From Actinomycetes bacterium (GTDB taxonomy: Bacteria; Actinomycetota; Actinomycetes; Prado026), in NCBI GenBank assembly GCA_036510875.1, contig DATCDE010000036.1:1-45280 (forward strand): 45,280 nucleotides of DNA, read 5' to 3'. A model generated the notes under the pieces. The model was not told the DNA's origin. It ran no database searches and saw only the letters and a list, made by a program, of their open reading frames with translations. Positions within the stretch are counted from its first letter, which is position 1. Every line of letters starts with the position of its first letter. Both the position numbers and the translations under genes were made by a program. Of this stretch, positions 9,764 through 27,196 are shown in pieces.

Positions 9764-9790
9764 CTCAAGGGCACCTGGGCAGACGCCGAA
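9764..9790 (+). promoter_or_regulatory. FliA/WhiG-like promoter for the switch-module operon
   Basis: CTCAAG (9764-9769), 14 bases, then CGCCGAA (9784-9790), about 60 bases before the roadblock gene. The two boxes match the -35/-10 pattern of motility-type sigma factors (TAAA / GCCGATAA in other bacteria; CTCA(A) / GCCGAA as I recall for actinobacterial FliA). It is one of seven such sites in the pilus locus with identical spacing. Confidence 0.65.
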
Positions 9791-9853
9791 GGGACGGTGG
9801 AGGGCATCGGGGCGCCGGTGCTCCGACCCATCGGCTTGCGAAAAGGGTGCGCG

Positions 9854-10714
9854 ATGACCGACCAGTTCCCCGCCTACGGGCGCTCGGCCCGGCTCGACCG
9901 GGTGCTGTCTGACCTGCTGGGTCAGGCCCCCGAGCTGCAGGCAGCGTCCGTGGTGTCCTTCGACGGGCTGCCGATGGCCTCGGCCCTGCCCGTCGGCATG
10001 GACGAGGACCGCGTCGCGGCCATGAGTGCCGCCCTGCTCTCCCTCGGGGAGCGCGCCGCGGACAACTTCGGCCGTGGCGACCTGAACCAGGTCTACGTCG
10101 AGGGTGAGCGCGGGACCGTGTTCCTGGTCTCCGCCGACGACGAGGCCGTGCTGGTCGCCATGGGCGCGCAAGGCGCCAAGGTCGGCCTGCTCATGTACGA
10201 GGTGCGCCGGGCCGCCATCGCCGTGGCGGCCGCGCTGCGCGCGGACGATGCCACGGCCCTGGCTCTCGCCGAGGACCAGCGGGTGGCTGCCGAGGCCGCC
10301 GAGGTGGCCGAGCAGCGGATGGCGGCGCAGGCCGCGGAACAGGCCGCCGTCGAGGCGGCGCTGGCCGAGCGGCGGGCGCAGCTGGCCGCCGTCCCGGCCG
10401 CCGAGCCGGTGGCTGAGCCGGTCGTCGAGGAGATGTCGGACAACACCGAGAAGCTCGAACCGGTGGGCTACTACACCGGCGGGCCGGTCGAGGTCCCGGC
10501 GGAGTACGCCACCCTCGCAACGTCGGTGGCATCCGGCTGGGACAGCCCCCCGGCCGAGCCCGACCCGGAGCCGGAGCCGGAGCCGGTGGCCGCCGTCCCG
10601 GTGGCGAGCGTCGCTGCCAATCCCGACCTCGGTGCCTGGGCCACGTTCACCCCGAGCGAGCCGGTCGCGAGGCCGGTCCTCTCGGCCGCCGAGGAACCGA
10701 ATCTCTGGGCCTGA
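9854..10714 (+). CDS. Roadblock/LC7-domain protein with Pro/Glu-rich tail
   Basis: A 286-residue protein. Residues ~10-125 form a roadblock/LC7 domain (VLSDLLGQAPELQAASVVSF...MSAALLSLGERAADNF..., GERGTVFLVSADDEAVLVAMG), a fold that regulates small GTPases (MglB is the best-known bacterial case). A heptad-like Ala/Glu helix (about 140-185) and an acidic Pro-rich tail with EPEPEPEP follow. The ATG at 9854 has GAAAAGGG upstream and starts just before the domain; the longer frame adds no homology. It is the first gene of an operon with a DUF4388 protein and a GTPase, directly upstream of the pilus motor genes, so a role in controlling the GTPase and the pilus is likely (inference). Confidence 0.85.
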   Translation: MTDQFPAYGRSARLDRVLSDLLGQAPELQAASVVSFDGLPMASALPVGMDEDRVAAMSAALLSLGERAADNFGRGDLNQVYVEGERGTVFLVSADDEAVLVAMGAQGAKVGLLMYEVRRAAIAVAAALRADDATALALAEDQRVAAEAAEVAEQRMAAQAAEQAAVEAALAERRAQLAAVPAAEPVAEPVVEEMSDNTEKLEPVGYYTGGPVEVPAEYATLATSVASGWDSPPAEPDPEPEPEPVAAVPVASVAANPDLGAWATFTPSEPVARPVLSAAEEPNLWA

Positions 10715-10752
10715 CCGACCGCTGACCAGCCATCGACCAGACGGGAACTGAT

Positions 10753-11955
10753 GTGAAACTCGAGGGCTCGCTCGATGCCTTCGGCCTCCCGGACATCTTC
10801 CAGCTGCTGAGCCACACGAAGAAGACCGGAGGCCTGCACCTGCGGCGCGGGGGAGCCGACGGTGTCGTCTACTTCGCGGACGGCGCGGTCTGCGGCGCCT
10901 CGGCCGACGAGCGCCAGCAGACGCTGGCCCGACGGCTGGTCGGCAGCGGCACCGTGGACGACGACGCGCTACGGTCTGCGGTCCAGCGCGCGGTCAACGA
11001 CCAGGTGGGCATCGGCCGGGCGCTGCTCGAGTCGAACGCGGTCGACCCCGAGCTGCTGCGCGAGGCCGCCACCGAGCAGACCTTCGACGCGGTGTTCGAC
11101 TTGATGTGCTGGACCGAGGGCGACTTCGCCTTCGCGGGCGACGAGTCGGACCCGGACGGCGTCGGGCTGCGGCTGCCCGCCGACACGGTGGTCGACGAGG
11201 CGCAGAGCCGGCGCGAGGCCTGGGATGCCGCGGCCTCCGGCGTGCCGTCGCCGGACACCGTCCTGGCCATGCCCGTCGTCCTCGACGACGATCCCGCCTT
11301 GACCAGGGACGAGTGGGCGCTGCTGGCCCTCGTCGACGGCCGTCGCCCGGTTCGGGAGATCGTCGAGCTCACCGGGGCCGGCCAGTTCGCCGTCGTGTCC
11401 ACGCTCTCCCGTCTGGTCGAGCGCGGGTTGCTCGGTGTCCGCAACGACGCGCACGACCATGCGGCCGTCGTCGCCCGCCGGCTCGCCCTGCTCTCCCCGC
11501 TGGAGCGAGAAGGCAAGCGCCAACGCGGGAATGAGAGCGACGCGGGCGGCGCCGAAAAGCCCGCCTCTGAGGAGCCTGAACCAGCGCCGGTCGTGTCGTC
11601 AGCCACGACCGAGGCGGCACCTGAGACTGCCGACGAGCCGGACTCATCGGCGGACGAGCAGCCGCACGACCTTGAGCCGGTGGGCATCTCTGCCGTCCGG
11701 CAGGAGACGCTGGCTCCCGTGATGACCACGGATCAGCCGTCGCCCCTGAGTCGCGTGCACGTCAACGTCTCCCAGCAGGCCGGTTCACCGCTGCGGGTGG
11801 GCGAGAGCACCCTCGGTGGGGGCCTGAGCGGGGTCGGTGGCGTCGTGGGCAGCACCGCGACCGCGCCCGAGCCGGCATCGTCGGCCATCGAACGTGACCC
11901 CAATGTCAACCGCAGCCTCCTGCTGAGGCTCATCGCCGGCGTCAGGGGGCTGTGA
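10753..11955 (+). CDS. DUF4388 (PATAN-like) domain protein
   Basis: A 400-residue protein. The first ~110 residues match DUF4388: KLEGSLDAFGLPDIFQLLSHTKKTGGLHLRRGG, then a helical segment around FDLMCWTEGDFAFA. DUF4388/PATAN domains occur in bacterial signalling proteins, some linked to gliding or T4P motility. A second region (about 175-240: LTRDEWALLALVDGRRPVREIVELTG) looks like a winged helix. The rest is acidic, disordered sequence that ends in a short amphipathic helix NRSLLLRLIAGVRGL, a possible docking peptide. Translation starts at GTG 10753, 38 bases after the roadblock gene; the GTPase follows after one base. Confidence 0.8.
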   Translation: MKLEGSLDAFGLPDIFQLLSHTKKTGGLHLRRGGADGVVYFADGAVCGASADERQQTLARRLVGSGTVDDDALRSAVQRAVNDQVGIGRALLESNAVDPELLREAATEQTFDAVFDLMCWTEGDFAFAGDESDPDGVGLRLPADTVVDEAQSRREAWDAAASGVPSPDTVLAMPVVLDDDPALTRDEWALLALVDGRRPVREIVELTGAGQFAVVSTLSRLVERGLLGVRNDAHDHAAVVARRLALLSPLEREGKRQRGNESDAGGAEKPASEEPEPAPVVSSATTEAAPETADEPDSSADEQPHDLEPVGISAVRQETLAPVMTTDQPSPLSRVHVNVSQQAGSPLRVGESTLGGGLSGVGGVVGSTATAPEPASSAIERDPNVNRSLLLRLIAGVRGL

Positions 11956-11956
11956 G

Positions 11957-12532
11957 ATGGCGACCAAGGCGCGTAGCCGTCGTGGTGGACAGGCGGTGAA
12001 GATCGTCGTCACCGGCCCGTTCTCGGCCGGCAAGACCACGCTCATCCGCACCATCAGCGAGATCACCGTGCTGTCGACCGAGCGCAGCATCACCGACTCG
12101 ACCCGCAGCCGCAAGGCCGAGACGACAGTGGCCATGGACTTCGGCCGCATCACGATCGACCGTGAGCTGGTGCTCTACCTGTTCGGGACGCCCGGCCAGG
12201 AGCGGTTCGACTTCATGTGGGAGATCCTCGGCGAGGGCATGCTCGGCTACGTGCTCCTGGTGGACGCCGAGCGCGAGGACTCCCTCATCGAGGCGGTGGG
12301 CATCCTGGACGCGTTCCGGCGGATGGCCCGGGTGCCGTTCGTGGTGGCGCTGAACCGCTCGAGCGCGGTGGATGACCGCACCGAGGACCGGATCCGAGAC
12401 GTGCTGCAGCTGGGACCGGAGACGGCGCTGCTGCCGGTGGACGCCACCGACAAGGAGTCGGTCAAGGGCGTGCTGCTGGCGCTGCTCTACGCCGTGCTGG
12501 ACGAGGTCGAGACCGAGCGCGCCTCCGTCTGA
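11957..12532 (+). CDS. Small Ras-like GTPase (CvnD/MglA-like)
   Basis: A 191-residue P-loop GTPase. G1 is GPFSAGKTT (residues 20-28) and G3 is FGTPGQERF (76-84), the CvnD/MglA-type variant in which the usual Asp is Thr. A conserved Thr in switch I is probably in STERSITDSTR. The G4 region reads ALNRSSAVDD (131-140), so the Asp of NKxD that reads the guanine base is missing; G5 may be VDATD (161-165). Roadblock plus GTPase pairs occur in actinobacterial conservons (cvnB/cvnD) and in Myxococcus (mglB/mglA), where the GTPase sets T4P polarity. Here the pair sits at the head of the pilus locus, so a matching role is inferred. No membrane segment is seen. Confidence 0.88.
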   Translation: MATKARSRRGGQAVKIVVTGPFSAGKTTLIRTISEITVLSTERSITDSTRSRKAETTVAMDFGRITIDRELVLYLFGTPGQERFDFMWEILGEGMLGYVLLVDAEREDSLIEAVGILDAFRRMARVPFVVALNRSSAVDDRTEDRIRDVLQLGPETALLPVDATDKESVKGVLLALLYAVLDEVETERASV

Positions 12533-12549
12533 GTCGAGAATCTCTCGAC
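12533..12549 (+). other. Small perfect hairpin before the O-antigen-ligase-like gene
   Basis: GTCGAGA / TCTCGAC form a 7-bp stem with a 3-base loop directly after the GTPase stop and just before the AGGAG site of the next gene. It could attenuate transcription or affect translation of the ligase gene. It is too short to call a terminator. Confidence 0.35.
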
Positions 12550-12561
12550 CTACAGGAGTGG

Positions 12562-14004
12562 TTGGATCCCGCCGATCCTTCAGCCGTGACGATCGCTGAG
12601 CGGCTGGGAGTCGCGCTGGGGGAGGCATCCGAGACCGACCGAGCCACCACGTGGGGCTCCCCGATGACGTGGATCGGGCTGGTCGTCGTGGCCTTGCTCG
12701 TCACCTGGTTCCCGCACCCCTTCGGCGGACGTGATGTCGGTGCCACGTCAGTCGCTGCCATCGGGGTGGCTGTCAGCCTCGTCCTGGTCCGGCCCTGGCG
12801 CTCGGCCGGGCCGGCGCTGATCGGCCTGCTGGCCTGGCTCGCGGTCGCAGCGCTCCTCGTGGTCCCGTTGACCAGCGGGGGGCGTGGCGCGGCGGTGGCG
12901 GCAACGACCTATGGCCTGGCTGCCGGTGCCTTCCTGCTGACTCGCTGGCTGGGCAGGGATGATCTGGCTCGCCGGGCCCTGGTCGCCGCGGTCGCGCTCG
13001 GCGGGATCCTGCAGTTCGGCTGGGCGTTCCTGCCCTGGTGGGGATCCGGTGACCCCGCCCACGGGATGGTCGGAACGTACTACTGGAAGAACCAGTACGC
13101 GGCGGCGCTGCTGGCCCCCGCGGTTCTCGGGCTGGCTCTCGCGGTCCTCAACCGGCGCCCTTGGCGCCTGATCGGCTGGGTCGCAGCCCCGCTGTCGGTG
13201 ACCGGGACGTTCCTGTCCGGCTCGCGGGCGGCGTTGGCCATCCTCGCGGTCGGCTGGCTCGTCGTCGGCGTGCTTCTCGTGGCTGGGGCGAAGCAGCGGC
13301 GTGCCCGAGTGGTCCGGTGGGTCGCTGTCTCCCTGCTGACCGCGGCGGTGGCCGTCGTCCTGCCCGGCCCGCCGCTGTTCTCCCACCAGCGATCACCACT
13401 GAGCCAGACGGTGGCGAGCACCGCCGATGGTCATCTGCAGTCCAGCGGCGACTACCGGCTGCAGGTCTGGACCGAGGCCGTCCACGTCTTCACCGACCAC
13501 CCGCTGACGGGCGCCGGCTACGGCCGGGTGGCCTCGGCGACGGCAGCGTGGAAACCGGCGGGCTGGCCGGTGTCGTCGCTGGTGCACAACGGTGCGCTTC
13601 AGGCCCTGGCGGACGGCGGCCTGTTGCTGGCCGTCCCGTTCCTGGTCCTGCTCGGGGCGGCGGTTCTCGTCCTGCTGCGCAGGGCGGTCCCGAAGGGGGG
13701 ATCAGAGCGGGATCCGTTGGTCGAGGTGGCCGCCGTCGCCGGTCTGATGCTGATCGCGCACTCGATGGTCGACTTCGACTGGTCCTACCCGGCGCTGGCC
13801 GTGATCACCGCCGTCGTCATCGGGCTGGCGATCCCCGCCCGGCCGGTCCAGCAGGTGGGAGTCACTGCGGGTCAGTCGAGAGCCACCGGCTGGCTGGCCG
13901 CGGTGCTGGTGGGCTCGCTCGTGGTCGGGGGCCTCGCCTCGTGGGGGCAACAGTTCCACATCAACGCGTCCGTCGCAGTCACGAGCCAGGGGGCCAGCAA
14001 GTGA
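12562..14004 (+). CDS. O-antigen ligase/polymerase-like (Wzy_C family) membrane protein
   Basis: A 480-residue polytopic membrane protein with about 12 hydrophobic segments. The family hallmark is the central YYWKNQYAAALLAPAVL...FLSGSRAA, followed by a periplasmic-type loop with DYRLQVWTEAVHVFTDHPLTGAGYGRV and a late VHNGALQALADGGLL, as in WaaL/Wzy/PglL proteins. These transfer or polymerise lipid-linked glycans. Its place inside the pilus operon, with its stop overlapping the pilB start (GTGA), suggests pilin O-glycosylation (inference). The start is uncertain: TTG at 12562 has AGGAG only 3 bases upstream, while GTG at 12586 would shorten it by 8 residues. Confidence 0.8.
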   Translation: MDPADPSAVTIAERLGVALGEASETDRATTWGSPMTWIGLVVVALLVTWFPHPFGGRDVGATSVAAIGVAVSLVLVRPWRSAGPALIGLLAWLAVAALLVVPLTSGGRGAAVAATTYGLAAGAFLLTRWLGRDDLARRALVAAVALGGILQFGWAFLPWWGSGDPAHGMVGTYYWKNQYAAALLAPAVLGLALAVLNRRPWRLIGWVAAPLSVTGTFLSGSRAALAILAVGWLVVGVLLVAGAKQRRARVVRWVAVSLLTAAVAVVLPGPPLFSHQRSPLSQTVASTADGHLQSSGDYRLQVWTEAVHVFTDHPLTGAGYGRVASATAAWKPAGWPVSSLVHNGALQALADGGLLLAVPFLVLLGAAVLVLLRRAVPKGGSERDPLVEVAAVAGLMLIAHSMVDFDWSYPALAVITAVVIGLAIPARPVQQVGVTAGQSRATGWLAAVLVGSLVVGGLASWGQQFHINASVAVTSQGASK

Positions 14005-15665
14005 AGCAGTTGGGGGACATTCTGCTCGAGGGTGGCTTGGTCACCCATGAGCAGCTGCAGGCGGCCTTCGAGGTGCACGAGTCGGCGGGTCGGGCGCTCG
14101 GCCGGGTCCTCGTCGACCAGGGTGTCTTGTCCGAGAGCCAGCTGGTGGCCGCTCTGGCCACTCAGATCGGCATGCGGTTCGTCGAGCTGGGCGACCAGCA
14201 GGTCGACCCGTCGGCCATGTCACTCGTTCCGGCGGCGCTCGCCCGCCGCTACGTCGTCCTGCCGTTCGGGTTCGAGGACGGCAAGCTGCTCCTCGCCATG
14301 GCCGATCCGGCCAACTTCCTGGCCATCGAGGACGTCCGGGCGGTCGCCCAGGTCGAGGTCAAGCCGTGCGTCGCGACCCGGCAGGACGTGCTGGCCGCGA
14401 TCGACCGGCTGTACCGGGCCGACTCCGAGCTCGAGGACCTGACAGCGGTCCTGGACACCTCGAACGATGAGGAGGACCTCTCCAAGGTCACGGCGGACGT
14501 CGACGACGCCCCGATCGTGCGCTACGTCAACATGCTGATCACCCAGGCGATTCAGGACCGTGCCTCTGACATCCACCTGGAACCCACGGAGCGCGACCTG
14601 CGGGTGCGCTACCGCATCGACGGCGTCCTGCACGAGGTGATGCGCTCCCCGAAGAACGTGCAGGCGGGTGTGATCAGCCGGTTGAAGATCATGGCCGACA
14701 TCAACATCGCGGAGCGCCGGATCCCCCAGGACGGCCGCCTGTCGGTGTCGAGCAACGGCAAGAAGGTCGATCTCCGGGTGGCGACGCTTCCCACGGTGTG
14801 GGGGGAGAAGGTCGTCATGCGAATCCTGGACAACTCCACCGCGCGCCTCGACCTGTCGGACCTGGGGTTTTCGGACGGCAACTACGAGCGGTACTCCAAG
14901 AGCTTCACCAAGCCCTACGGGATGATTCTGGTCACCGGGCCGACCGGTTCCGGAAAGTCGACGACGCTGTACGCGACGCTGAACATCCTGAACAAGCCCG
15001 AGGTCAACATCATCACGGTGGAGGACCCGGTCGAGTACCGGCTGCCGGGGGTCAACCAGGTGCAGACCAACAACAAGGCCGGGCTGACCTTCGCCTCGGC
15101 GCTGCGCTCGATCCTGCGCTCGGACCCCGACATCGTCCTCATCGGTGAGATCCGGGACCACGAGACGGCCCAGATCGCCATCGAGGCGGCGCTGACGGGT
15201 CACTTGGTCCTGGCCACGCTGCACACGAACGACGCGCCGAGCGCCATCACCCGGCTGACCGAGATGCGCATCGAGCCCTTCCTGGTCGGCTCGGCCGTCG
15301 ATGCCGTGCTCGCCCAGCGGCTGGCCCGGCGGCTGTGCACCAAGTGCAAGGAGCCGTACGACCCGACGCCCGACATGCTCCGGGCCGCCCGATACCCGTG
15401 GCAGGAGGGGGATCAGATCCCCACCTTCTACCGGGCGGTCGGATGCCCAGCCTGCGCCAAGACCGGCTACCGGGGGCGGTTGGCGCTGCACGAGGTCATG
15501 CAGGTCACCGAGGAGATCGAGCGGCTGACGGTCGAGCACAGCTCGGCGTCGACCATCAACGAGGCGGCCATCGCCCAGGGCATGGTGACGCTCCGCAACG
15601 ACGGGCTGGCCAAGGTCGCCCAGGGGGTCACGTCGATGGACGAGATCCTGCGCGTCGTGGTCTGA
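14001..15665 (+). CDS. pilB: Type IV pilus extension ATPase PilB
   Basis: A 554-residue GspE/PilB-type ATPase that powers pilus assembly at the inner face of the membrane. The N-terminal T2SSE_N domain (about 1-150: MKQLGDILLEGGLVTHEQLQ) is followed by the catalytic domain with Walker A GPTGSGKST (about 312-320), Asp box, Walker B IGEIRD (about 380) and His box. A zinc-binding tetracysteine, CTKC (about 446) ... CPAC (about 481), is typical of PilB/GspE and absent from PilT. The GTG at 14001 overlaps the previous stop. It is the last gene of the first pilus transcription unit; pilT has its own promoter. Confidence 0.96.
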   Translation: MKQLGDILLEGGLVTHEQLQAAFEVHESAGRALGRVLVDQGVLSESQLVAALATQIGMRFVELGDQQVDPSAMSLVPAALARRYVVLPFGFEDGKLLLAMADPANFLAIEDVRAVAQVEVKPCVATRQDVLAAIDRLYRADSELEDLTAVLDTSNDEEDLSKVTADVDDAPIVRYVNMLITQAIQDRASDIHLEPTERDLRVRYRIDGVLHEVMRSPKNVQAGVISRLKIMADINIAERRIPQDGRLSVSSNGKKVDLRVATLPTVWGEKVVMRILDNSTARLDLSDLGFSDGNYERYSKSFTKPYGMILVTGPTGSGKSTTLYATLNILNKPEVNIITVEDPVEYRLPGVNQVQTNNKAGLTFASALRSILRSDPDIVLIGEIRDHETAQIAIEAALTGHLVLATLHTNDAPSAITRLTEMRIEPFLVGSAVDAVLAQRLARRLCTKCKEPYDPTPDMLRAARYPWQEGDQIPTFYRAVGCPACAKTGYRGRLALHEVMQVTEEIERLTVEHSSASTINEAAIAQGMVTLRNDGLAKVAQGVTSMDEILRVVV

Positions 15666-15692: not shown

Positions 15693-15719
15693 CTCAAGCG
15701 GCCGAGGTGAACGACCGAT
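15693..15719 (+). promoter_or_regulatory. FliA/WhiG-like promoter for pilT-pilC
   Basis: CTCAAG (15693-15698), 14 bases, GACCGAT (15713-15719), in the 113-bp gap between pilB and pilT and 59 bases before the pilT start. It has the same spacing as the other six sites in the pilus locus. Confidence 0.6.
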
Positions 15720-15778: not shown

Positions 15779-17368
15779 GTGGAGACCTCCGGGTACAGCG
15801 GGGGATTCGTCCCGGGACCGAATCCGGTCCCGGCTCAGGACGAGTCCGTCCCGCCGTTGTCGCCGTTGGACGCCGCGTGGCAGCCGCCGCATCCGGCCGA
15901 GGCGCAGCTGCCGCCCCCCCCGTTCCCGGTGGGGCAGGCGACGCCTGAGGCATCGTCCATCGCGCTCGTGCCGCTCGACGACATCAGCCCGTCTGAGGCG
16001 GTCTCGATGTTCGGGCTGCCTGATGCGGCGCCGGTGTTCACCCCTGAGGCCGTTCCGGCGCAGCCGGTGATGGTGCCGGCCGCGGTGGCCCAGCCGGTCC
16101 TGGCGGCCGAGCCGGTCGCCGCGGTCGTCCCGTTACTCGAGCCGGTGGGCGCGCCGGAGCCACTCGCGGTCGCCCCGGTCTGGACGGAGCCTCCGGTCGA
16201 GCCGGTCGAGCCGCCGGCGGCACCCACGGTGACGATCGCTCAGACGGAAGCCTTCGAGGGTGCCTACCATCGCGGCAGCACAGAGGAGGACACCCAGGAG
16301 GGCGACCTCAACCTGCACGAGCTGCTGGCCCTGGTCCTCGAGCGCAGCGCGTCCGACCTCCACCTGACCTCCGGCTCGCGGCCGCAGCTGCGGCTCAACG
16401 GGCACCTGACCCCGCTCGAGGACTACCCCGAGCTGACCCCGGCGATCATCCAGCGGGCCATGTACGCCACGATCACGCAGCGGCAGCGGGAGAAGTTCGA
16501 GGAGCAGCTCGAGCTGGACTTCGCCTACTCCGTTCCGGGCAAGGCCCGGTTCCGGGTGAACCTGTACCGCCAGCGGGACTCGGTCGGCGCCGCCTTCCGG
16601 CTGATCCCGTTCGAGCTCAAGAAGCTCGAGGACCTCGGCGTTCCGCCGTCGGTCGCGAACTTCGCGATGCTGCCGCGGGGCTTCGTCCTGGTCACCGGGC
16701 CGACCGGCTCGGGCAAGTCGACGACCCTGGCCTCGCTGGTCGACCTTGCCAACCGGCAGCGCCGGGACCACATCATGACCGTCGAGGACCCGATCGAGTT
16801 CCTACACAACCACCAGTCCTGCATCGTCAACCAGCGTGAGGTGGGGGAGGACACGCACTCCTTCGCCAACGCGCTGAAGCACGTGCTGCGGCAGGACCCC
16901 GACATCATCCTGGTCGGCGAGATGCGGGACCTCGAGACGATCTCTGTCGCGCTCACCGCGGCTGAGACCGGCCACCTGGTCTTCGCCACCCTGCACACCC
17001 AGGACGCCGCCCAGACCATCGACCGCATCATCGACGTCTTCCCCCCGCACCAGCAGCAGCAGGTGCGGGTGCAGCTGGCGGGATCGCTCCAGGGGGTGGT
17101 CGCCCAGACCCTGGCCCGCACCGTCGACGGTCGCAGCCGCGTCGTCGCCACGGAGGTCCTCGTCGCGACGCCGGCCATCCGCAACCTGGTCCGCGAAGGC
17201 AAGACCCACCAGATCTACTCCGCCATGCAGGCGGGCTCCCAGCACGGCATGCACACGATGGACCAGCACCTGGCTGACCTGGTGAAGCGGGGACGCATCA
17301 CCTATGAGACCGGCCTGGAGAAGTGCCACCACATCGAGGACTTCAACCGGCTTTCCGGCCGGGGCTGA
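15779..17368 (+). CDS. pilT: Type IV pilus retraction ATPase PilT with long N-terminal extension
   Basis: A 529-residue protein; the last ~350 residues are a normal PilT: LHELLALVLERSASDLHLTSG, Walker A GPTGSGKST (about 305-313), Walker B VGEMRD (about 378), the AIRNLVREGK motif typical of PilT, and no tetracysteine. It drives pilus retraction. The first ~175 residues are a Pro/Val/Glu-rich low-complexity segment with repeated EPV/EPL motifs, similar in style to the tail of the roadblock protein. GTG at 15779 was chosen for the GAAGGGGG site 5 bases upstream; another GTG at 15764 would add five residues. Confidence 0.93.
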   Translation: METSGYSGGFVPGPNPVPAQDESVPPLSPLDAAWQPPHPAEAQLPPPPFPVGQATPEASSIALVPLDDISPSEAVSMFGLPDAAPVFTPEAVPAQPVMVPAAVAQPVLAAEPVAAVVPLLEPVGAPEPLAVAPVWTEPPVEPVEPPAAPTVTIAQTEAFEGAYHRGSTEEDTQEGDLNLHELLALVLERSASDLHLTSGSRPQLRLNGHLTPLEDYPELTPAIIQRAMYATITQRQREKFEEQLELDFAYSVPGKARFRVNLYRQRDSVGAAFRLIPFELKKLEDLGVPPSVANFAMLPRGFVLVTGPTGSGKSTTLASLVDLANRQRRDHIMTVEDPIEFLHNHQSCIVNQREVGEDTHSFANALKHVLRQDPDIILVGEMRDLETISVALTAAETGHLVFATLHTQDAAQTIDRIIDVFPPHQQQQVRVQLAGSLQGVVAQTLARTVDGRSRVVATEVLVATPAIRNLVREGKTHQIYSAMQAGSQHGMHTMDQHLADLVKRGRITYETGLEKCHHIEDFNRLSGRG

Positions 17369-18703: not shown

Positions 18704-18730
18704 CTCAAGCCGACCACCTGGCCGGTCGAT
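18704..18730 (+). promoter_or_regulatory. FliA/WhiG-like promoter of the first pilin gene
   Basis: CTCAAG (18704-18709), 14 bases, GGTCGAT (18724-18730). The same boxes recur in the duplicated region before the second pilin gene. Transcription would start near 18737, giving a leader of about 150 nt before the ATG at 18887. Confidence 0.65.
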
Positions 18731-18840: not shown

Positions 18841-19095
18841 GGATCTGTCGGAGTAGCTCACCGAACTGTCCCGGAGGGGAACACACATGCTCGAACGGAT
18901 CCGCAAGGCCCAGGAGGAGCACGAGGGTGGCTTCACCCTCATCGAGCTCCTGGTCGTCATCATCATCATCGGCATCCTCGCCGCGATCGCCATTCCGGTC
19001 TTCCTGAACCAGCGGAAGAAGGCCGTGGACGCGTCGCTGAAGTCCGACCTCCGCACCATGGCCACCGCCGAGGAGACCTACTTCGTGGACAACCG
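18827..19095 (+). repeat. Copy 1 of tandem duplication (leader end and 5' half of pilin gene)
   Basis: The stretch is nearly identical, without gaps, to 19622-19890 (offset 795 bases). It covers the last 60 bases of the leader, including CGGAGTAGCTCACCGA and the CCGGAGGGG ribosome site, and about the first 70 codons of the pilin. The 3' halves of the two genes are clearly diverged. Confidence 0.9.
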
Positions 19096-19321
19096 GGCCT
19101 ACCTTGCGGTGGCCGCCTCCACGGGCACTGCCACCGTCGGAACGCAGACGGTCAAGCTGTCGCCGAACAACTCCGTCACCGTGGTCTTCACCGGAGCCAA
19201 GGCCGGCACGTACTGCGTCAAGGCGACCAACCCGAACGGGACCGACCCGACGAACGGTTTCGTCTACCAGTCGGACAACGGGGGGCTCCAGGGAACAGGT
19301 GGGAACTGCACCGGCTACTAG
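18887..19321 (+). CDS. pilA: Type IV major pilin, copy 1
   Basis: A 144-residue prepilin. The 15-residue leader MLERIRKAQEEHEGG is cut by PilD before Phe16 (GG/FTLIELL), and the mature protein has the required Glu at +5 and the hydrophobic assembly helix. The globular domain has two Cys (TYCVKATN and GGNCTGY at the C-terminus) that likely form the D-region disulfide. Start ATG 18887 follows GGAGGGG. The gene is monocistronic, with its own promoter and terminator. Its N-terminal half is almost the same as copy 2 at 19682, while the surface-exposed C-terminal half differs, so the two may form different or mixed fibres. Confidence 0.95.
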   Translation: MLERIRKAQEEHEGGFTLIELLVVIIIIGILAAIAIPVFLNQRKKAVDASLKSDLRTMATAEETYFVDNRAYLAVAASTGTATVGTQTVKLSPNNSVTVVFTGAKAGTYCVKATNPNGTDPTNGFVYQSDNGGLQGTGGNCTGY

Positions 19322-19346
19322 CCTAGTCGAGTGCCTGATCGACCCA

Positions 19347-19382
19347 GTCTGGGGTCGGGACCGTATGGTCCCGACCCCAGAC
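19347..19382 (+). terminator. Hairpin terminator after first pilin gene
   Basis: A perfect 16-bp stem (19347-19362 with 19367-19382, starting GTCTGGGGTC) with a 4-base loop, 25 bases after the stop. The 360-base gap 19322-19681 holds this terminator, the promoter at 19474 and the riboswitch-like leader of the next pilin; no gene is seen in it. Confidence 0.88.
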
Positions 19383-19473
19383 GGCTTTGTGCTGACCACA
19401 GTTGTTCTGCTGATGGCCGCTGCTCACCGAGGCATAGGCCTTTCGGGTGATTCGGAGTTAAGTTCGGCTTGTC

Positions 19474-19500
19474 CTCAAGACGGCTCGGCGGTGGGTCGAT
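19474..19500 (+). promoter_or_regulatory. FliA/WhiG-like promoter of the second pilin gene
   Basis: CTCAAG (19474-19479), 14 bases, GGTCGAT (19494-19500), followed by CAC as in the first pilin promoter. Transcription starting near 19507 would give a 175-nt leader that contains the riboswitch candidate. Confidence 0.65.
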
Positions 19501-19520
19501 CACTTTCCTGTCATAGAGCT

Positions 19521-19610
19521 GCAACGACCAGAAACGGCACACCCGTCGTGAGGCGGGGTCGCAAAGCCAGGGGACCTGCGGGCGTGCAGGCCGGCCCAGC
19601 TGCCTCGGTC
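19521..19610 (+). ncRNA. Putative cyclic-di-GMP-I (GEMM) riboswitch aptamer in pilin leader
   Basis: Landmarks in GEMM order: GACC (19526-19529) able to pair with GGTC (19607-19610); GGCACACC (19536-19543); a stem CGTC-GTGA-GGCG with a GNRA tetraloop (19544-19555); the hallmark GGGGTCGCAAAGCCAGGGG, compared with GGGACGCAAAGCCNNGGG in known GEMM RNAs; a hairpin CCTGC-GGGCGT-GCAGG (19575-19590) closed by GGG/CCC; then CAGCTGCC near the place of the ligand-contacting AGC. It lies wholly inside the predicted leader. No clear expression platform was seen; a small GCCCT/AGGGC hairpin follows at 19613-19627. Assigned by eye, without a covariance-model search. Confidence 0.6.
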
Positions 19611-19621
19611 AGGCCCTTTCG

Positions 19622-19890
19622 CAGGGCGCTGTGGGGGATCTGTCGGAGTAGCTCACCGAACCGTCCCGGAGGGGAACACACATGCTCGCACGGATCCGCA
19701 AGGCCCAGGAGGAGCACGAGGGCGGCTTCACCCTCATCGAGCTCCTGGTCGTCATCATCATCATCGGCATCCTCGCCGCGATCGCCATTCCGGTCTTCCT
19801 GAACCAGCGGAAGAAGGCCGTGGACGCGTCGATGAAGTCCGACCTCCGCACCGTGGCCAACACGGAGGAGACCTACTTCGTCGACAACCA
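19622..19890 (+). repeat. Copy 2 of tandem pilin duplication
   Basis: Gap-free near-identical partner of 18827-19095. Upstream of the repeat the two leaders still align but with many substitutions, so the coding half and the 60 bases before it have been kept alike by recent duplication, gene conversion or strong selection. Confidence 0.9.
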
Positions 19891-20107
19891 GACCTACGTC
19901 GCTTTGACCGGCGCCGCGCCGGCGTACACGGTCGGCACGATCCCGGTCAAGACGTCGACTGGCAACACCCTCACCGTCAAGACTCCTGGTGCGGGTGGTG
20001 CAGGCACCTACTGCATCGCGGCGAGCAACACGAACGGCAGCCAGCCCTGGGTGTACATCAGCGACAACGGCGGCCTGCAGCCGTCCAGCGTCACTGTCTG
20101 CCCGTAA
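19682..20107 (+). CDS. pilA: Type IV major pilin, copy 2
   Basis: A 141-residue prepilin with leader MLARIRKAQEEHEGG and cleavage before Phe16 (FTLIELL, Glu at +5). The N-terminal assembly helix is the same as in copy 1. The C-terminal domain is distinct: it keeps the two Cys (TYCIAASN and the terminal VTVCP) but has a different loop (GAGGAGTYC). The ATG follows CCGGAGGGG. This copy has the better-preserved cyclic-di-GMP riboswitch candidate in its leader, so it may be the copy controlled by second messenger. It has its own promoter and terminator. Confidence 0.95.
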   Translation: MLARIRKAQEEHEGGFTLIELLVVIIIIGILAAIAIPVFLNQRKKAVDASMKSDLRTVANTEETYFVDNQTYVALTGAAPAYTVGTIPVKTSTGNTLTVKTPGAGGAGTYCIAASNTNGSQPWVYISDNGGLQPSSVTVCP

Positions 20108-20174: not shown

Positions 20175-20192
20175 GCCTTGCGGGCGGGGGGC

Positions 20193-20219
20193 CTCAACCG
20201 ATCGGGCCAACAGGACGAG
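20193..20219 (+). promoter_or_regulatory. Weaker FliA/WhiG-like promoter of the third pilin gene
   Basis: CTCAAC (20193-20198), 14 bases, GGACGAG (20213-20219). It has one mismatch in the first box and two in the second compared with the other sites, but the same spacing and the same position, about 58 bases before the start codon. The gene may be transcribed less strongly. Confidence 0.45.
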
Positions 20220-20276: not shown

Positions 20277-20726
20277 ATGAGACCCCGGGAAACTGTCCCG
20301 GGCCAGGAGCGAACTGCTGACGAAGGCTTCACCCTGATCGAACTGCTCGTCGTCATCATCATCATTGGCATTCTGGCGGCGATCGCGATCCCGGTGTACC
20401 TGAGCCAGCGAGACCGCGCGTACGACAGCGCGGCGAAGTCGGATGTACGGAACCTGGCCCAATTCGAAGAGACCCTGCTAGCTGGCACAGGCACGTACGG
20501 CTCATTCACGGACTTGGCGGCGGGCAACTTGACGGTCAAGCCCACTCGCCTGGTCACGCTGACCATCACGTTCAACAGCGCGGCCAGCTACTGCCTTTCG
20601 GCCAAGCATCTGAACGGGTCAACGACCTGGTACTACGACAGCCAGGCGGGGGGGATCCAGCCGAGGGGCAGCTCAGGCTGTCCGGTGACCACCGCCGGCA
20701 CGAGTGGGGGGTCGCTCACCGGCTAA
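20277..20726 (+). CDS. Type IV pilin-like protein, copy 3
   Basis: A 149-residue prepilin with leader MRPRETVPGQERTADEG and cleavage before Phe18 (FTLIELLVVIIIIGIL, Glu at +5). The rest differs from the first two pilins (VYLSQRDRAYDSAAKSDVRNLAQFEETLL) but keeps the two-Cys pattern (SYCLSAKHLNG and SSGCPVTT). The ATG at 20277 has GGGGGG upstream and gives a leader peptide of normal length. It may be an alternative or minor pilin. Its leader RNA does not match the other two. Confidence 0.92.
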   Translation: MRPRETVPGQERTADEGFTLIELLVVIIIIGILAAIAIPVYLSQRDRAYDSAAKSDVRNLAQFEETLLAGTGTYGSFTDLAAGNLTVKPTRLVTLTITFNSAASYCLSAKHLNGSTTWYYDSQAGGIQPRGSSGCPVTTAGTSGGSLTG

Positions 20727-20754
20727 CCACGCTCAGCCGAGTCACACGGCGGGG

Positions 20755-20790
20755 ATGAGGGTCCGGAACCGGTCGGTTCCGGACCCTCAT
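20755..20790 (+). terminator. Hairpin terminator after third pilin gene
   Basis: A perfect 16-bp stem (20755-20770 with 20775-20790, starting ATGAGGGTCC) and a 4-base loop. It lies just before the promoter of the minor pilin operon. Confidence 0.88.
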
Positions 20791-20799
20791 CATGTCCCG

Positions 20800-20826
20800 T
20801 TCAAGTCGCCTGCTCCAGACGCCGAT
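20800..20826 (+). promoter_or_regulatory. FliA/WhiG-like promoter of the minor-pilin operon
   Basis: TTCAAG (20800-20805), 14 bases, CGCCGAT (20820-20826). The start codon at 20836 is only 10 bases beyond the -10 box, so the transcript would be almost leaderless, which supports that start. Confidence 0.62.
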
Positions 20827-20835
20827 GTGTCAGGC

Positions 20836-22179
20836 ATGGGGAAGCCGTGCCATGGGGGAGTCCTGCGTCGACTCCCTCGTCGAGGCAATGACGCGGGGCT
20901 CACGTTGATCGAGCTGATGTTCGCACTGGTGATCTTCGCGATCGTGGCAGCTGCCACAGTGGCGGGGCTGACACTCGCGCTGAACACCGGTCGCCTGGAC
21001 CGCAACCGGGTAGCCGCCGCAAACCTGGCTGCGCGTGAGCTCGAGATCGTGCGCGACGAGTTCAACGCCACGGCATCGGGCCCGACCACGCTCGCGGCCC
21101 AGAACTACGTGACGGACCCTCATCCACTTCCTGCCGGCACCGCCGGGCAAGCGTTGGTCGTCGACAACGTGGCGTACACGGTGGTGCGCAATGTGCAGTG
21201 GTTGCCGACCGGAACCGGGCAGAGTGCCTGCGACGGTGGGAGCGCGATCACCTACCCCACGCTCGCGGTCAACGTGCAGGTGACCTGGCCGCGGATGGAT
21301 GGGGTGCAGCCGGTCACCTCGAACACGATCCTGACCCCTCCCAAGGGTGTGCTGTCGAGCTCTCTGGGTTTCGTGGCGATCCCGGTGGTGAACGCGGCGG
21401 GGCAGCCCTCGGCGGGACAGCCGGTCACGCTGACCGGACCGGGGGGAACCTCCACGGACACCACCGCCGTCGATGGGTGCGCTGTCTTCTCGATCGCTAC
21501 GGCTGGCACCTACACGGCCAGCATCTTCGTCCCTGGCGGCGTTGACTTCTACGGCAGCGCCACTTCGAGCCAGTCCGTCCTGGCCAAGGCCGGCACCCTG
21601 GTGAAGGGCAAGGCCTTCACCTACGACCAGGCCGCTACGCTGAACGTGAAGCTCACGACGGACGCCGGCTACCAGATCCCCACGTCGCTGCCCCAGTTGA
21701 CCTTGGGCAACACCAACCTGCAGCCCACCGGGACGAAGACCGTTGCCTCTACCGGTGCGACCACCCCGCTCTCGGGGCTGTTCCCGTTCTCCGATGGGTA
21801 CACCGTGTGGGCCGGCGGCTGCCAGCAGTCCGACCCGGCGGCCGCTGGTGGCACCAGAACGGCAATTGTGGTGGCGCCCGGAGCGACCCAATCGGTCTCG
21901 GTGCGGCTCGCCCCGGTGACCGTGACAGCAGTCAAGGGGGTGAATCCCTTGGCTGGAGCCACGGTGGTCGCAGTCCCGTCGTCGACTACCGGCTGCGGGC
22001 CGACCGAGAACCCACTCACGCTGGGCGTCACCGATGCCTCGGGGACCTTGCGGACCTCGCTGCCCGCTGGAGCGTGGACCCTGAAGCTGTCCGGAATGTC
22101 ACCGAACGGGAGCTGGCCGACGACGCCGACTCTGTTGCCCAACAGCGCTCCCTCCTCGATAACGGTGGTGGCCTCATGA
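20836..22179 (+). CDS. PilV-like minor pilin with extracellular carboxypeptidase-regulatory-like domains
   Basis: A 447-residue prepilin. Leader of 21 residues (MGKPCHGG...GNDAG), cleavage before Leu22 (G/LTLIELM, Glu at +5), then a hydrophobic helix FALVIFAIVAAATVAGLTLAL and a pilin-like stem (AARELEIVRDEF). After about residue 190 come beta-rich segments that look like carboxypeptidase regulatory-like (CarboxypepD_reg) or Ig-like repeats: IPVVNAAGQPSAGQPVTLTG...GCAVFSIATAGTYTASI, and later NPLAGATVVAVPSSTTGCG...TLRTSLPAGAWTLKLSG. It is large for a minor pilin, so a tip or adhesive role is likely (inference). Its stop overlaps the next ATG. Confidence 0.85.
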   Translation: MGKPCHGGVLRRLPRRGNDAGLTLIELMFALVIFAIVAAATVAGLTLALNTGRLDRNRVAAANLAARELEIVRDEFNATASGPTTLAAQNYVTDPHPLPAGTAGQALVVDNVAYTVVRNVQWLPTGTGQSACDGGSAITYPTLAVNVQVTWPRMDGVQPVTSNTILTPPKGVLSSSLGFVAIPVVNAAGQPSAGQPVTLTGPGGTSTDTTAVDGCAVFSIATAGTYTASIFVPGGVDFYGSATSSQSVLAKAGTLVKGKAFTYDQAATLNVKLTTDAGYQIPTSLPQLTLGNTNLQPTGTKTVASTGATTPLSGLFPFSDGYTVWAGGCQQSDPAAAGGTRTAIVVAPGATQSVSVRLAPVTVTAVKGVNPLAGATVVAVPSSTTGCGPTENPLTLGVTDASGTLRTSLPAGAWTLKLSGMSPNGSWPTTPTLLPNSAPSSITVVAS

Positions 22180-22880
22180 GCCCGGTGCTGAGCCGGATCC
22201 GACGGCGACTGACGGGTCAGGGAGGTTTCACCCTGGTCGAGATGATCGTGGTGACCGTGATCTTGGGTGTCGTGCTGGCCGCAGTCCAGACAACCCTGAT
22301 CATGACCCAGAAGACAGTCGGGCAGAACGCCAGCCGGATCGACCAGACGCAGCAGGCCAAGCTGGCGGTCGACGCCATGTCCAAGACGCTGCGCACGGCG
22401 GTACTACCCGCGCTGCTCGGCTGCCAGACCTGTGACTCCACCGCGTTCATCCAGGGCGGCAGCAACTCGGTGCAGTTCTACGCCAACATCAACAACGACT
22501 CGAACGCAATCGGACCCAGCCGGGTCAGCTACACCGTGAACGCCAATGGTGACCTGGTGGAGACCATCCAGGCACCGGACGCGCACGCGGCCAACAACTT
22601 CAGCTACACCTACTGCACCCCCGGGCCGGGCTGCACTGTCTTGACCAGAGTCCTCGCGCGGCGCGTCCCGACCAGCCTGGCCGTCTTCACCTACTACGAC
22701 GCGAACGGCGCCGTGGTGAGCCCACCGTTGACGGCGACGACGCTCGCCCAGGTCGACAGCATCGACCTGGTGGTCAAGGTCCAGGACACCAGCAACGGAA
22801 CGCCCCCCGCCACCACCTTCGTGACCAGGGTGACGCTGCCGAACGCTGACGCCCAGGCCCAGTCGTCGCCGAGCCCGTGA
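22176..22880 (+). CDS. PilW-like minor prepilin
   Basis: A 234-residue prepilin with leader MSPVLSRIRRRLTGQGG and cleavage before Phe18 (FTLVEMIVV, Glu at +5), followed by the hydrophobic helix VTVILGVVLAAVQTTLIM. The LAVDAMSKTLRTAV helix resembles PilW/PulJ-type minor pilins, which help to start pilus assembly. Two nearby Cys pairs (GCQTC and YCTPGPGC) suggest disulfides. ATG overlaps the upstream stop, and the next gene follows after 11 bases. Confidence 0.85.
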   Translation: MSPVLSRIRRRLTGQGGFTLVEMIVVTVILGVVLAAVQTTLIMTQKTVGQNASRIDQTQQAKLAVDAMSKTLRTAVLPALLGCQTCDSTAFIQGGSNSVQFYANINNDSNAIGPSRVSYTVNANGDLVETIQAPDAHAANNFSYTYCTPGPGCTVLTRVLARRVPTSLAVFTYYDANGAVVSPPLTATTLAQVDSIDLVVKVQDTSNGTPPATTFVTRVTLPNADAQAQSSPSP

Positions 22881-22891
22881 CAGGAGTAACG

Positions 22892-24526
22892 ATGATTCGT
22901 CGTATGAGGCGCCGTCGCCGCAGTGGTGACGAGGGAATCGCCATGATCATGGTGATGGCCTCCATCACGGTGCTCACGCTGCTCATCACGGCCGCTGTCG
23001 GTTACGCGATGGCTGCCATGCCGCAGGCCCGGCACGACCAGGACTGGAACGCAGCGATGGCGGCCGCGCAGTCCGGCGTGGACGACTACGTCGCGCGGCT
23101 GAACCAGAACGACAGCTACTGGCAGACAGTGGACTGCACCAACACGGCGCTCAAGGGCGGCAAGAACGGGACCAACTCGTGCGGCTGGACGACGTCCACC
23201 TCGCCCGGCTGGCAGCTGGTGGAGCCTGGCAACTCCAAGGGGGGCCAGTTCCACTACGACGTGAGCACCGCAGGCATCAACAGCCAGGGCTACGTGCAAG
23301 TCACGTCCACAGGCCAGGTCAACGGGGTCAGCCGGACCATCCAGGCGAACGTGGGACGGGGCGGTTCGACCAACTTCCTCTACTACACCGACTTCGAGGA
23401 CGCCGACCCCGCAAACACGTACGTGTATCCGTCCGGCGCGTCGACCCAGTGCGGCGGCAGCGGACCCACCAACGCGAAGTACTACTGGCCCAGCGGCCGG
23501 TCGGGCTGTGTTGAGATCACCTTCGTGGGTGGCGACACGCTCGACGGCGCGGTGCACTTCAACGACACCCCGCTGATCAGCGGGACGCCCTTGTTCAAGA
23601 AGGGCTTCGAGACCGCGGACCCGAATTGCGCGACGACGCCCTACAGCGAGAGCAACTGCTACCGAGGCAGCGGCAACCCCAACCTGAACGGGTTGAACGC
23701 CCAAGCTGTGGGCCTGCTCAACCTCCCGGACAACAGCAACCAGTTCGTGAACTTCCCTGGCTGCCAGTACACGGGAGACACCCGAATCAAGTTCAACTCC
23801 AACGGCACGATGACCGTGTGGAACAAGGGGGGTGTCTCCGGAACCAACTGTGGGTCGGCCAGCCAGCTTGCCAGCACCAACGGGCAGTCCGGCATTCCGG
23901 TCCCCACCGACCAGGTGATCTACGTCCGGAACGCGGCGACCCAGACCAAGTGCACGGCCGGCCAGATCGGCGACGGACTCCCGCTCAGCGGCGACGTCAA
24001 CATCGTCGGGAGCAATGCGTTGCCTCAGTTCTACTGCGGCAACGGGAACCTCTACGTCGAGGGGACCCTCGGCGGACGGGTGACGGCCGCTGCGCAGAAC
24101 GACATCATCGTCACGAACGACCTGCTGCTAGCGAACACAACGAAGGGGCAGCCCGCCACCGGTCCGGACATGCTGGGCCTGGTCGCGGGGAACTCCGTGG
24201 TCGTCTACCACCCGGTGAACAGCTCGGGCAACGAACTGGTGTCGATCAGCGACCGCTGGATCTACGGATCGATCCAGACCCTGCAGCACAGCTTCTGGGT
24301 GCAGAACTACAACAACGGCAGCACGGCCGGTACCGCGAAGCTGCACGTCCGCGGCTCGATCGCGCAGCGCTGGCGTGGCATCGTCGGCACGAGCGGCGGG
24401 ACCGGCTACCTCAAGGACTACGGCTACGACACCCGGCTGAAGTACACGTCCCCGCCGTACTTCCCACAGTGGACCAACGCGGTCTGGAAGGCGACAACCA
24501 CGGGAGAGCTCAAGCCAGCCTACTGA
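22892..24526 (+). CDS. PilX-like large pilus-associated protein
   Basis: A 544-residue protein with a very basic start (MIRRMRRRRRSGDEG) and one hydrophobic helix (IAMIMVMASITVLTLLITAAVGYAM), then a PilX-like helix (DWNAAMAAAQSGVDDYVARLNQ). The cleavage-like Gly15 is present but Glu at +5 is not, as is common in PilX/PilK-type proteins. The rest is an Asn/Gly/Ser-rich extracellular region of the kind found in large PilX-like proteins with DUF4900/DUF7305-type domains (NDIIVTNDLLLAN, MLGLVAGNSVVVYHP). ATG at 22892 follows CAGGAG; a GTG 15 bases upstream is less likely. It may be a tip component together with the PilV-like protein. Confidence 0.8.
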   Translation: MIRRMRRRRRSGDEGIAMIMVMASITVLTLLITAAVGYAMAAMPQARHDQDWNAAMAAAQSGVDDYVARLNQNDSYWQTVDCTNTALKGGKNGTNSCGWTTSTSPGWQLVEPGNSKGGQFHYDVSTAGINSQGYVQVTSTGQVNGVSRTIQANVGRGGSTNFLYYTDFEDADPANTYVYPSGASTQCGGSGPTNAKYYWPSGRSGCVEITFVGGDTLDGAVHFNDTPLISGTPLFKKGFETADPNCATTPYSESNCYRGSGNPNLNGLNAQAVGLLNLPDNSNQFVNFPGCQYTGDTRIKFNSNGTMTVWNKGGVSGTNCGSASQLASTNGQSGIPVPTDQVIYVRNAATQTKCTAGQIGDGLPLSGDVNIVGSNALPQFYCGNGNLYVEGTLGGRVTAAAQNDIIVTNDLLLANTTKGQPATGPDMLGLVAGNSVVVYHPVNSSGNELVSISDRWIYGSIQTLQHSFWVQNYNNGSTAGTAKLHVRGSIAQRWRGIVGTSGGTGYLKDYGYDTRLKYTSPPYFPQWTNAVWKATTTGELKPAY

Positions 24527-24546
24527 GTCTCCGGGGACTGACGCCC

Positions 24547-24552
24547 TACGGT
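24547..24552 (+). promoter_or_regulatory. Candidate -10 of a leaderless pilD promoter
   Basis: TACGGT ends 7 bases before the GTG start of pilD at 24560. It would allow pilD to be made independently of the minor pilins. Confidence 0.4.
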
Positions 24553-24559
24553 TACTCCC

Positions 24560-25330
24560 GTGCTTGAAGCCCTAGCCGGCCTGCTCGGCCTGCTCGTCGG
24601 CTCGTTCCTCAACGTGGTCATCTACCGGGTGCCCCGTGGGGAGTCGGTCGTGCACCCGCGGTCACGCTGCCCGGGGTGCGGATACGAGCTGGCCTGGTAC
24701 GACAACGTGCCGGTGCTCAGCTGGCTGCTGCTGCGCCGGCGGTGCCGTCGCTGTCGGGCGCCGATCAGCGCCCGGTACCCGCTGGTCGAGGCGCTGACTG
24801 CGGTGGTCTTCGGCATGCTCGCCTGGCGGTTCGGGGCAACCTGGCAGCTGCCGGCCTTCCTCTACCTGGGGGCGGTCGGGGTCGCGCTGGCGTTCATCGA
24901 CCTGGACACCAAACGGCTGCCGGACGTCCTGACCCTGCCGTCCTACCTGGTCGGCGGGGCTCTGCTGCTGCTGCCGGCCGCGCTGGACGGGAACTGGTCG
25001 GCCTATCTGCGCGCCTGGCTGGGCGCCTTGGCGCTGTTCGGGTTCTACTTCCTGCTGGCCTTCATCTACCCGGCCGGCATGGGCTTCGGCGACGTGAAGC
25101 TGGCGGGCGTCCTCGGCCTCTACTTGGCCTGGTTGGGGTGGGGGGTCCTCGTGGTCGGCGGCTTCCTGGGATTCCTGCTCGGTGGCCTCATCGGCGGCGG
25201 CCTGATGATCGTCCGGCGGGCCGGCCGCAAGTCGAAGATTCCCTTTGGGCCCTTCATGATTCTCGGCGCCTTCCTGGCCTTGTGGATCGGCCAGCCGCTC
25301 ACCGACTGGTACGCCGGCATCCTCGGCTGA
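24560..25330 (+). CDS. pilD: Prepilin peptidase / N-methyltransferase
   Basis: A 256-residue polytopic aspartic protease of the cytoplasmic membrane that removes the leader of type IV prepilins and may methylate the new N-terminus. Seen: SFLNVVIYRVPRG, a zinc-binding CPGC ... CRRC loop (N-methyltransferase part), FIDLDTKRLPD and GFGDVKL with the two catalytic Asp, and about seven TM helices. All substrates (six prepilin-like genes) lie directly upstream. GTG start at 24560. Confidence 0.96.
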   Translation: MLEALAGLLGLLVGSFLNVVIYRVPRGESVVHPRSRCPGCGYELAWYDNVPVLSWLLLRRRCRRCRAPISARYPLVEALTAVVFGMLAWRFGATWQLPAFLYLGAVGVALAFIDLDTKRLPDVLTLPSYLVGGALLLLPAALDGNWSAYLRAWLGALALFGFYFLLAFIYPAGMGFGDVKLAGVLGLYLAWLGWGVLVVGGFLGFLLGGLIGGGLMIVRRAGRKSKIPFGPFMILGAFLALWIGQPLTDWYAGILG

Positions 25331-25374
25331 CAGCGCTTTCTCCCGGGCGTTTCCCGCCCAATCGAGAGCAAAGG

Positions 25375-25401
25375 CTCAAGCCAGCCCCCCCACAGGCCGA
25401 T
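25375..25401 (+). promoter_or_regulatory. FliA/WhiG-like promoter of the pilM-N-O operon
   Basis: CTCAAG (25375-25380), 14 bases, GGCCGAT (25395-25401), the closest match to the sigma-28 GCCGAT box among the seven sites. It lies 70 bases before the pilM start. Confidence 0.68.
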
Positions 25402-27195: not shown

Positions 27196-27196
27196 G

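Follow-up and report, generated by a model that had tools for sequence, protein, structure and literature searches.

Seven predicted WhiG promoters and a c-di-GMP-I riboswitch at an actinomycete type IV pilus locus: one signal may control the pilus twice

A 45,280-base stretch of DNA from an Actinomycetes bacterium (assembly GCA_036510875.1, contig DATCDE010000036.1; hereafter the window) carries a type IV pilus locus flanked by aroE and aroC, and seven sites resembling promoters of the sigma-28/WhiG class lie within this locus. The genes run in the order Roadblock-DUF4388-GTPase module, pilB, pilT, pilC, three prepilin genes, three minor-pilin-like genes, pilD and pilM-N-O-P, all on the + strand; genes lacking a Pfam match were named from reading of their translations and from synteny. 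One of the prepilin leaders also holds an aptamer of the cyclic di-GMP (c-di-GMP) riboswitch family, and from these sequences it appears that one signal, c-di-GMP, may control the pilus twice.

The first predicted promoter (9764-9790) precedes the module of a Roadblock/LC7 protein (9854-10714; PF03259, 64 bits), a DUF4388 protein (10753-11955; PF14332, 84 bits) and a small GTPase-like protein (11957-12532; PF03029 at 70.5 bits, with weak Ras/Arf matches); similar sites were seen before the Roadblock gene at L090 and L229. The pilus extension ATPase gene pilB, encoding an MshEN domain, follows at 14001-15665 (PF00437, 476 bits; PF05157, 79 bits). The second promoter (15693-15719), which has a counterpart before pilT at L088, stands ahead of a pilT-like ATPase gene (15779-17368; PF00437, 164 bits) and a pilC-like gene (17380-18606) named by synteny, with homologues in the pilus loci of relatives. 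The third (18704-18730) lies before the type IV prepilin gene pilA1 (18887-19321; prepilin motif GFTLIELLVV), the fourth (19474-19500) before pilA2 (19682-20107) and its riboswitch, and the fifth and weakest (20193-20219) before pilA3 (20277-20726); pilA2 and pilA3 were identified as type IV prepilins from their translations. Promoter six (20800-20826), matched by similar sites before the homologue at L077 and L084, precedes three minor-pilin-like genes with prepilin-like N termini (20836-22179, 22176-22880 and 22892-24526), and its transcript is predicted to be almost leaderless. A Pfam search with the third of these genes gave no match. A pilD-like prepilin peptidase gene (24560-25330) was recognized by sequence and synteny, and promoter seven (25375-25401) leads into the pilM-pilN-pilO-pilP-like operon (25472-28536), likewise named from sequence and synteny. 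The start codons of pilB, pilT and the pilM operon were our choice.

Scanning the window with the pattern YTCAAS-N14-SRNCGA gave exactly seven matches, at 9764, 15693, 18704, 19474, 20193, 20800 and 25375, all on the + strand, compared with a mean of 0.37 and a maximum of 3 in 100 dinucleotide shuffles of the window. Pilus-locus genes stand downstream of all seven sites, and no match occurred elsewhere in the window. Between the second box and the chosen start codon lay from about 10 bases (site 20800, ATG at 20836) to about 180 bases (site 19474, ATG at 19682). An earlier note on this DNA had described seven sites of identical spacing at these positions, 10 to 180 bases before pilus genes and before none of the non-pilus operons, with the one at 20193 weaker. 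The scan confirmed the coordinates and spacing, the placement held within the window, and the site at 20193 (CTCAAC..GGACGAG) was the weakest of the seven. The base after the second box was T in five of the seven sites, and the site was therefore written as CTCAAG-N15-GNCGAT. Since the leaders of pilA1 and pilA2 are duplicates, their two sites are not independent; the sites before the GTPase module, pilT, pilA3, the minor pilins and pilM differ from one another outside the boxes. In promoters read by sigma-28/WhiG factors, the -35 and -10 boxes lie about 15 bases apart. The published consensus has TAAA at -35 and GCCGATAA at -10 (PMC8325347). The -10 box GNCGAT fits this consensus, and the -35 box is TCAA in most sites and TTAA or TAAA in some relatives.

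The aptamer in the pilA2 leader (19526-19607) matched the c-di-GMP-I family RF01051 at 50.4 bits, above the gathering threshold of 35, and begins 25 bases behind the pilA2 promoter. It was the only RF01051 match found in the genome of the window (G000; 60 of 98 candidates scored). No riboswitch was detected at E ≤ 5 in the sister leader of pilA1, and the duplicated pilins (18887-20107) thus have leaders that differ in the presence of the aptamer. Rfam scans of 23 further loci found RF01051 or its GGC variant in the pilus loci L040, L074, L075, L081, L082, L083, L084 and L088, with CTAAAG variants as the promoter of the riboswitch leaders at L083 and L088; in the Rfam scan of the pilus loci of family f13, neither was found. 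Across the comparison set of 60 genomes, own genome included, at least 27 RF01051 matches were present in 19 genomes. Among these listed matches, 22 had a promoter in the 70 bases ahead of the aptamer; its spacing was the same in 18 and shorter by one base in 4, whereas other spacings from 6 to 25 gave 0-2 and the reverse strand none. A prepilin gene followed 17 of the listed matches, and all 17 had the promoter, which ended 23-29 bases before the aptamer. Four of the five non-pilin cases with a promoter (L265, L271, L272 and L280) have, behind the promoter and c-di-GMP-I riboswitch, genes that we read as encoding secreted CAP-like proteins. G031 and G008 (L223 and L224) have c-di-GMP-II-GAG aptamers at distances from pilM of about 3 and 7 kb.

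The genome (4.05 Mb, 95% complete) has a single match to TIGR02479 (FliA/WhiG) above the cut-off, L072, which scored 431 bits against the WhiG equivalog model NF004935 (cut-off 343). It aligned with Streptomyces venezuelae WhiG (6pfj) at E=1.3e-120, and the promoter-reading regions were closely similar in the alignment. By our reading its gene lies in the order trmD-rplS-lepB-rnhB-dprA-whiG. An RsiG anti-sigma protein of 186 residues (L144, at G000:C255) was found by its c-di-GMP motif pattern; it reached 101 bits with PF22802 and matched S. venezuelae RsiG of 6pfj (E=1.5e-27) as well as Rubrobacter RsiG structures. The second of its c-di-GMP motifs is exact, and the first has D in place of E.

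Both proteins, and the motif with them, were distributed together among the relatives. RsiG (PF22802) was present in 41 of the 60 genomes, including all 37 whose WhiG exceeds the cut-off, and such a WhiG was absent from the 19 RsiG-negative genomes. Four RsiG-positive genomes lacked a WhiG over the cut-off: G002, G051, G028 and G052, the last two of which have partial WhiG-like matches that in some cases lie at the start of a contig. The form CTCAAG-N15-GCCGAW occurred 199 times in 150.2 Mb of the 41 RsiG-positive genomes, against 26 for the reversed motif used as control (7.7-fold). The 19 RsiG-negative genomes (104.8 Mb) had 37 occurrences, against 28 for the control (1.3-fold). Motif density differed between the two groups at p=4e-8 (Mann-Whitney, with no correction for shared ancestry). 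A pilM gene of at least 215 bits was found in 31 of the 60 genomes, own included; RsiG was present in 30 of these 31 and in 11 of the 29 others (table 30, 1, 11, 18; p=6e-7, likewise uncorrected for shared ancestry).

The site before pilM was kept in most relatives. In 30 pilM upstream sequences (own, 3 named contigs and 26 other genomes), the strict motif occurred at N14 in 16 and in none at spacings 9-13 or 15-19 or on the reverse strand. Variants, among them CTTAAG and NCCGAT, were seen in the remaining loci. A broader pattern, picked post hoc after the sequences had been viewed, was present at N14 in 28 of 30, own locus included, with at most one at any other spacing and one on the reverse strand, and the sequence flanking the site diverged among the relatives. 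The two loci without a site were L092 (G030) and L094 (G055). G055 is the sole pilM genome with neither RsiG nor a WhiG over the cut-off, but it also has one of the more distant PilM proteins (44% identity), so the absence of the site there is suggestive only. Inside the operon, the strict site was found in none of 29 pilN and none of 28 pilO windows. At other genes of the locus, own included, it was seen before Roadblock in 2 of 2 and before pilT in 2 of 2. Separately, a similar promoter also precedes the Roadblock gene of G058, a genome in which pilM was not found; the Roadblock-DUF4388-GTPase module may therefore act beyond pili.

Genome-wide, the outcome depended on how tightly the motif was drawn. 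The tight form CTCAAG-N15-RYCGAW occurred 14 times in the 4.05 Mb against once for the control, and 5 of the 14 lay in the pilus locus. The loose YTCAAS-N14-SRNCGA gave 131 matches against 53, few of which were inspected outside the pilus locus, and this pattern by itself is not specific across the genome. For the intermediate CTCAAG-N15-GNCGA, 38 matches stood against 33 in the control, showing no whole-genome enrichment; 24 of the 30 inspected overlapped a coding-like frame, a test that overstates coding because it flagged sites 9764 and 25375 too. The idea that the motif might be scattered at random was thus turned down for the tight form and upheld in part for the looser ones. Other points raised in the earlier note fared well: a sigma-28-family factor is present, in the form of WhiG, and both the assignment of the sites to sigma-28-family promoters and the grouping of the locus, Roadblock/GTPase module included, as one pilus regulon are supported by that WhiG, by the single spacing of the pilM site in relatives and by the enrichment in RsiG/WhiG-positive genomes. 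It had not described the RsiG anti-sigma, the riboswitch ahead of pilA2, or the occurrence of the motif upstream of GGDEF-EAL genes and of a second rsiG-like gene.

Outside the pilus locus, motif sites in likely non-coding gaps were retained as candidates only, before or near genes for a secreted DUF4082 protein (C94), acyltransferase/aminotransferase genes (C357) and a secreted protein (C47). The sites on C236, C253 and C268 were rejected as promoters, since the surrounding sequence looks coding. Two GGDEF-EAL genes, on C216 and C56, have the motif upstream. The gene on C56, which belongs to the diguanylate cyclase/phosphodiesterase (DGC/PDE) class, was followed in 30 fetched orthologous loci, of which the 23 aligning near the protein start were used. 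The relaxed motif was found at spacing 14 in 4 of 23 (three of family f1, and G028) and at spacing 13, a spacing admitted post hoc, in 9 of 23; the strict motif was found in 1 and 2 of 23, respectively. Orthologues without a site came from the RsiG-positive genomes G025, G043, G051, G034 and G013 and from two of family f19, in which start placement is less sure. None of the orthologues of the three RsiG-negative genomes (G055, G018 and G038) had a relaxed site.

A second RsiG-like protein (L142, at G000:C106; 57 bits) has one full motif and a degenerate second. Its gene carries a CTCAAC variant of the promoter about 58 bases ahead of the start. Thirty-seven further places of lower-ranking PF22802 matches were fetched from 34 genomes, own included, and the 16 proteins aligned were all of this second type. 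Strict sites at spacing 14 were present in 19 of the 37 upstream windows (300 bases, own gene included), compared with 4 at spacing 11, 2 at spacing 13, none at other spacings and none on the reverse strand. That this gene carries the promoter motif suggests feedback. Autoregulation of whiG or of the main rsiG was considered and rejected, since the strict motif was seen in only 1 of 30 whiG and 0 of 26 main rsiG upstream windows of 450 bases. In the f13 genomes G014, G036 and G053 (L217-L222), an RsiG gene of the second type lies next to pilB, and a second WhiG-family sigma is encoded inside the pilus locus.

We consider it likely that the seven sites are WhiG promoters which switch on the pilus locus, that WhiG is probably held by RsiG at high c-di-GMP, and that pilA2 is then gated by the riboswitch. 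RNA polymerase with the WhiG of this genome would read the seven promoters (-35 CTCAAG, -10 GNCGAT, 15 bases between them by our count), turning on the type IV pilus locus along with some c-di-GMP enzymes and the second RsiG-like gene. At high c-di-GMP, WhiG would probably be sequestered by RsiG, as published for Streptomyces and Rubrobacter; low c-di-GMP would most likely free WhiG and allow transcription of the locus. The second RsiG-like protein would then rise and dampen WhiG. The signal would be read again in the pilA2 leader, in which the aptamer lies near the predicted 5' end of the transcript, whereas the paralogue pilA1 has the promoter and no recognizable riboswitch. Should the aptamer, presumed to bind c-di-GMP rather than cGAMP, act as an on switch, expression of pilA2 would be confined to intermediate c-di-GMP concentrations; should it act as an off switch, each layer would strengthen the other. 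PilB was considered as a third c-di-GMP sensor and rejected. Compared by eye with the motif given in PMC5013675, its MshEN domain has lost both key arginines (replaced by Q and A) and one glutamine (replaced by H), and c-di-GMP binding is doubtful because these contact residues are lost.

Several observations weigh against this account. The published flagellar consensus has TAAA at -35, where these sites have TCAA, and by our own alignment their spacer is longer by one base. G030 has WhiG and RsiG yet no site before pilM, and G002 and G051 (78% and 93% complete) carry the site but no WhiG over the cut-off. Strict sites before pilin homologues were found in a minority of loci, own included (pilA1, 4 of 18; pilA2, 5 of 17; pilA3, 2 of 16; first minor pilin, 3 of 12), and were absent before pilB (0 of 8), pilC (0 of 12) and pilD (0 of 28). 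Five of the 27 listed riboswitches had no promoter, one in the RsiG-negative G004 and four in RsiG-positive genomes (two in G023, one in G013 and one in G052). Moreover, the genomes compared are not phylogenetically independent.

The sites could instead belong to a flagellar FliA programme that would turn on pili and flagella jointly, the situation in Actinoplanes zoospores. The sigma family and promoter class would be the same, and pili and flagella of Actinoplanes both use FliA-family sigmas (PMC8325347). However, a search for FlhA (PF00771), the one flagellar gene that was looked for, gave no match in our genome. FlhA was found in 12 of the 60 genomes, each of which also has a FliA-like match at 172-194 bits, while our genome has no such match between those scores and the curated model identifies its sigma as WhiG. 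A flagellar programme is highly unlikely on these grounds, and the motility programme proposed in the earlier note was not borne out. Instead of being a promoter, the motif might be bound by a transcription factor specific to the pilus, and its rigid spacing would suit a dimeric DNA-binding protein. We regard this as quite unlikely: the order and spacing of the boxes are like those of the sigma-28 class, they are directional (0 strict and 1 broader match on the reverse strand of the 30 pilM upstream sequences), they lie 23-29 bases before prepilin-leader aptamers, which must be inside the RNA, and their presence tracks RsiG/WhiG.

WhiG could read the promoters without being controlled by RsiG and c-di-GMP, with RsiG having another partner, and the two RsiG-like proteins in this genome and the second WhiG-family sigma in the f13 genomes are compatible with such an arrangement. 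It is unlikely, given that every genome with a WhiG over the cut-off has RsiG and no RsiG-negative genome has such a WhiG, and that motif-bearing genes include c-di-GMP enzymes and riboswitch leaders. Finally, a functionless motif might have been copied along with the pilin genes by chance and duplication, as the duplicated leaders of pilA1 and pilA2 would allow. However, the sites at five of the places where it stands differ outside the boxes, and 28 of 30 pilM loci keep it amid diverging flanks. With seven matches against 0.37 in shuffles and the conservation upstream of pilM, this is very unlikely, to the point of being negligible. Control of the pilus locus by WhiG, with RsiG and the riboswitch as two c-di-GMP gates, thus remains our preferred reading. 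We give only even weight to its extension across many actinomycete families, in which WhiG would chiefly serve pili and the cell surface, and c-di-GMP would gate its targets twice, through RsiG and then through a c-di-GMP-I riboswitch. This would give a band-pass or a reinforced switch for the riboswitch-bearing pilin, and a third type of RsiG, with one full and one degenerate motif and itself a WhiG target, would close a feedback loop. The conservation of the promoter before pilM in many actinomycete families suggests that control of the pilus by the WhiG-RsiG switch is widespread and perhaps ancestral.

At the very end of the contig, the start of a group II intron (RF02003, 65 bits) was seen at 45178-45280 of the window, cut by the contig end.

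Control of pili by WhiG/RsiG and c-di-GMP riboswitches on pilus genes are each already known. In searches of open-licence papers, a set without most subscription papers, we found neither a WhiG promoter and a riboswitch used as a serial gate on a single transcript nor a second RsiG linked to this promoter; no paper searched described a sigma/anti-sigma switch placed in series with a riboswitch for the same molecule. Type IV pilus genes of Clostridioides difficile are also under c-di-GMP riboswitch control, and there a class II aptamer precedes the pilin gene; in our locus, a class I aptamer lies directly behind a WhiG-type promoter. WhiG/RsiG control of pili was published for Rubrobacter in 2021 (PMC8325347), and R. 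radiotolerans has 12 mapped WhiG promoters, with three in the pilus cluster and five before DGC/PDE genes (PMC8325347). Our genome resembles it in having WhiG and RsiG, and WhiG promoters are predicted in both, within the type IV pilus cluster and likewise before GGDEF/EAL genes. It differs in its twin-motif RsiG, in the -35 box CTCAAG instead of TAAA, in seven cluster sites instead of three, in having the same promoter ahead of a second RsiG-like gene whose second motif is degenerate, and in the c-di-GMP-I riboswitch behind a pilin promoter; the RsiG survey in that report gave a second RsiG in 1 of 134 genomes (PMC8325347). The zoospore pili of Actinoplanes missouriensis are similar in that a FliA/WhiG-family sigma transcribes the pilus genes, but that organism is flagellated and reported as lacking RsiG (PMC8325347), whereas our genome has RsiG and no FlhA match. 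WhiG is described as a sporulation factor of Streptomyces and is tied to pili in basal Rubrobacter and, via FliA-family sigmas, in Actinoplanes (PMC8325347). Close homologues of the WhiG and the twin-motif RsiG of the Streptomyces sporulation switch (PMC8325347) are present in our genome, and their predicted output is the pilus locus instead of sporulation genes.

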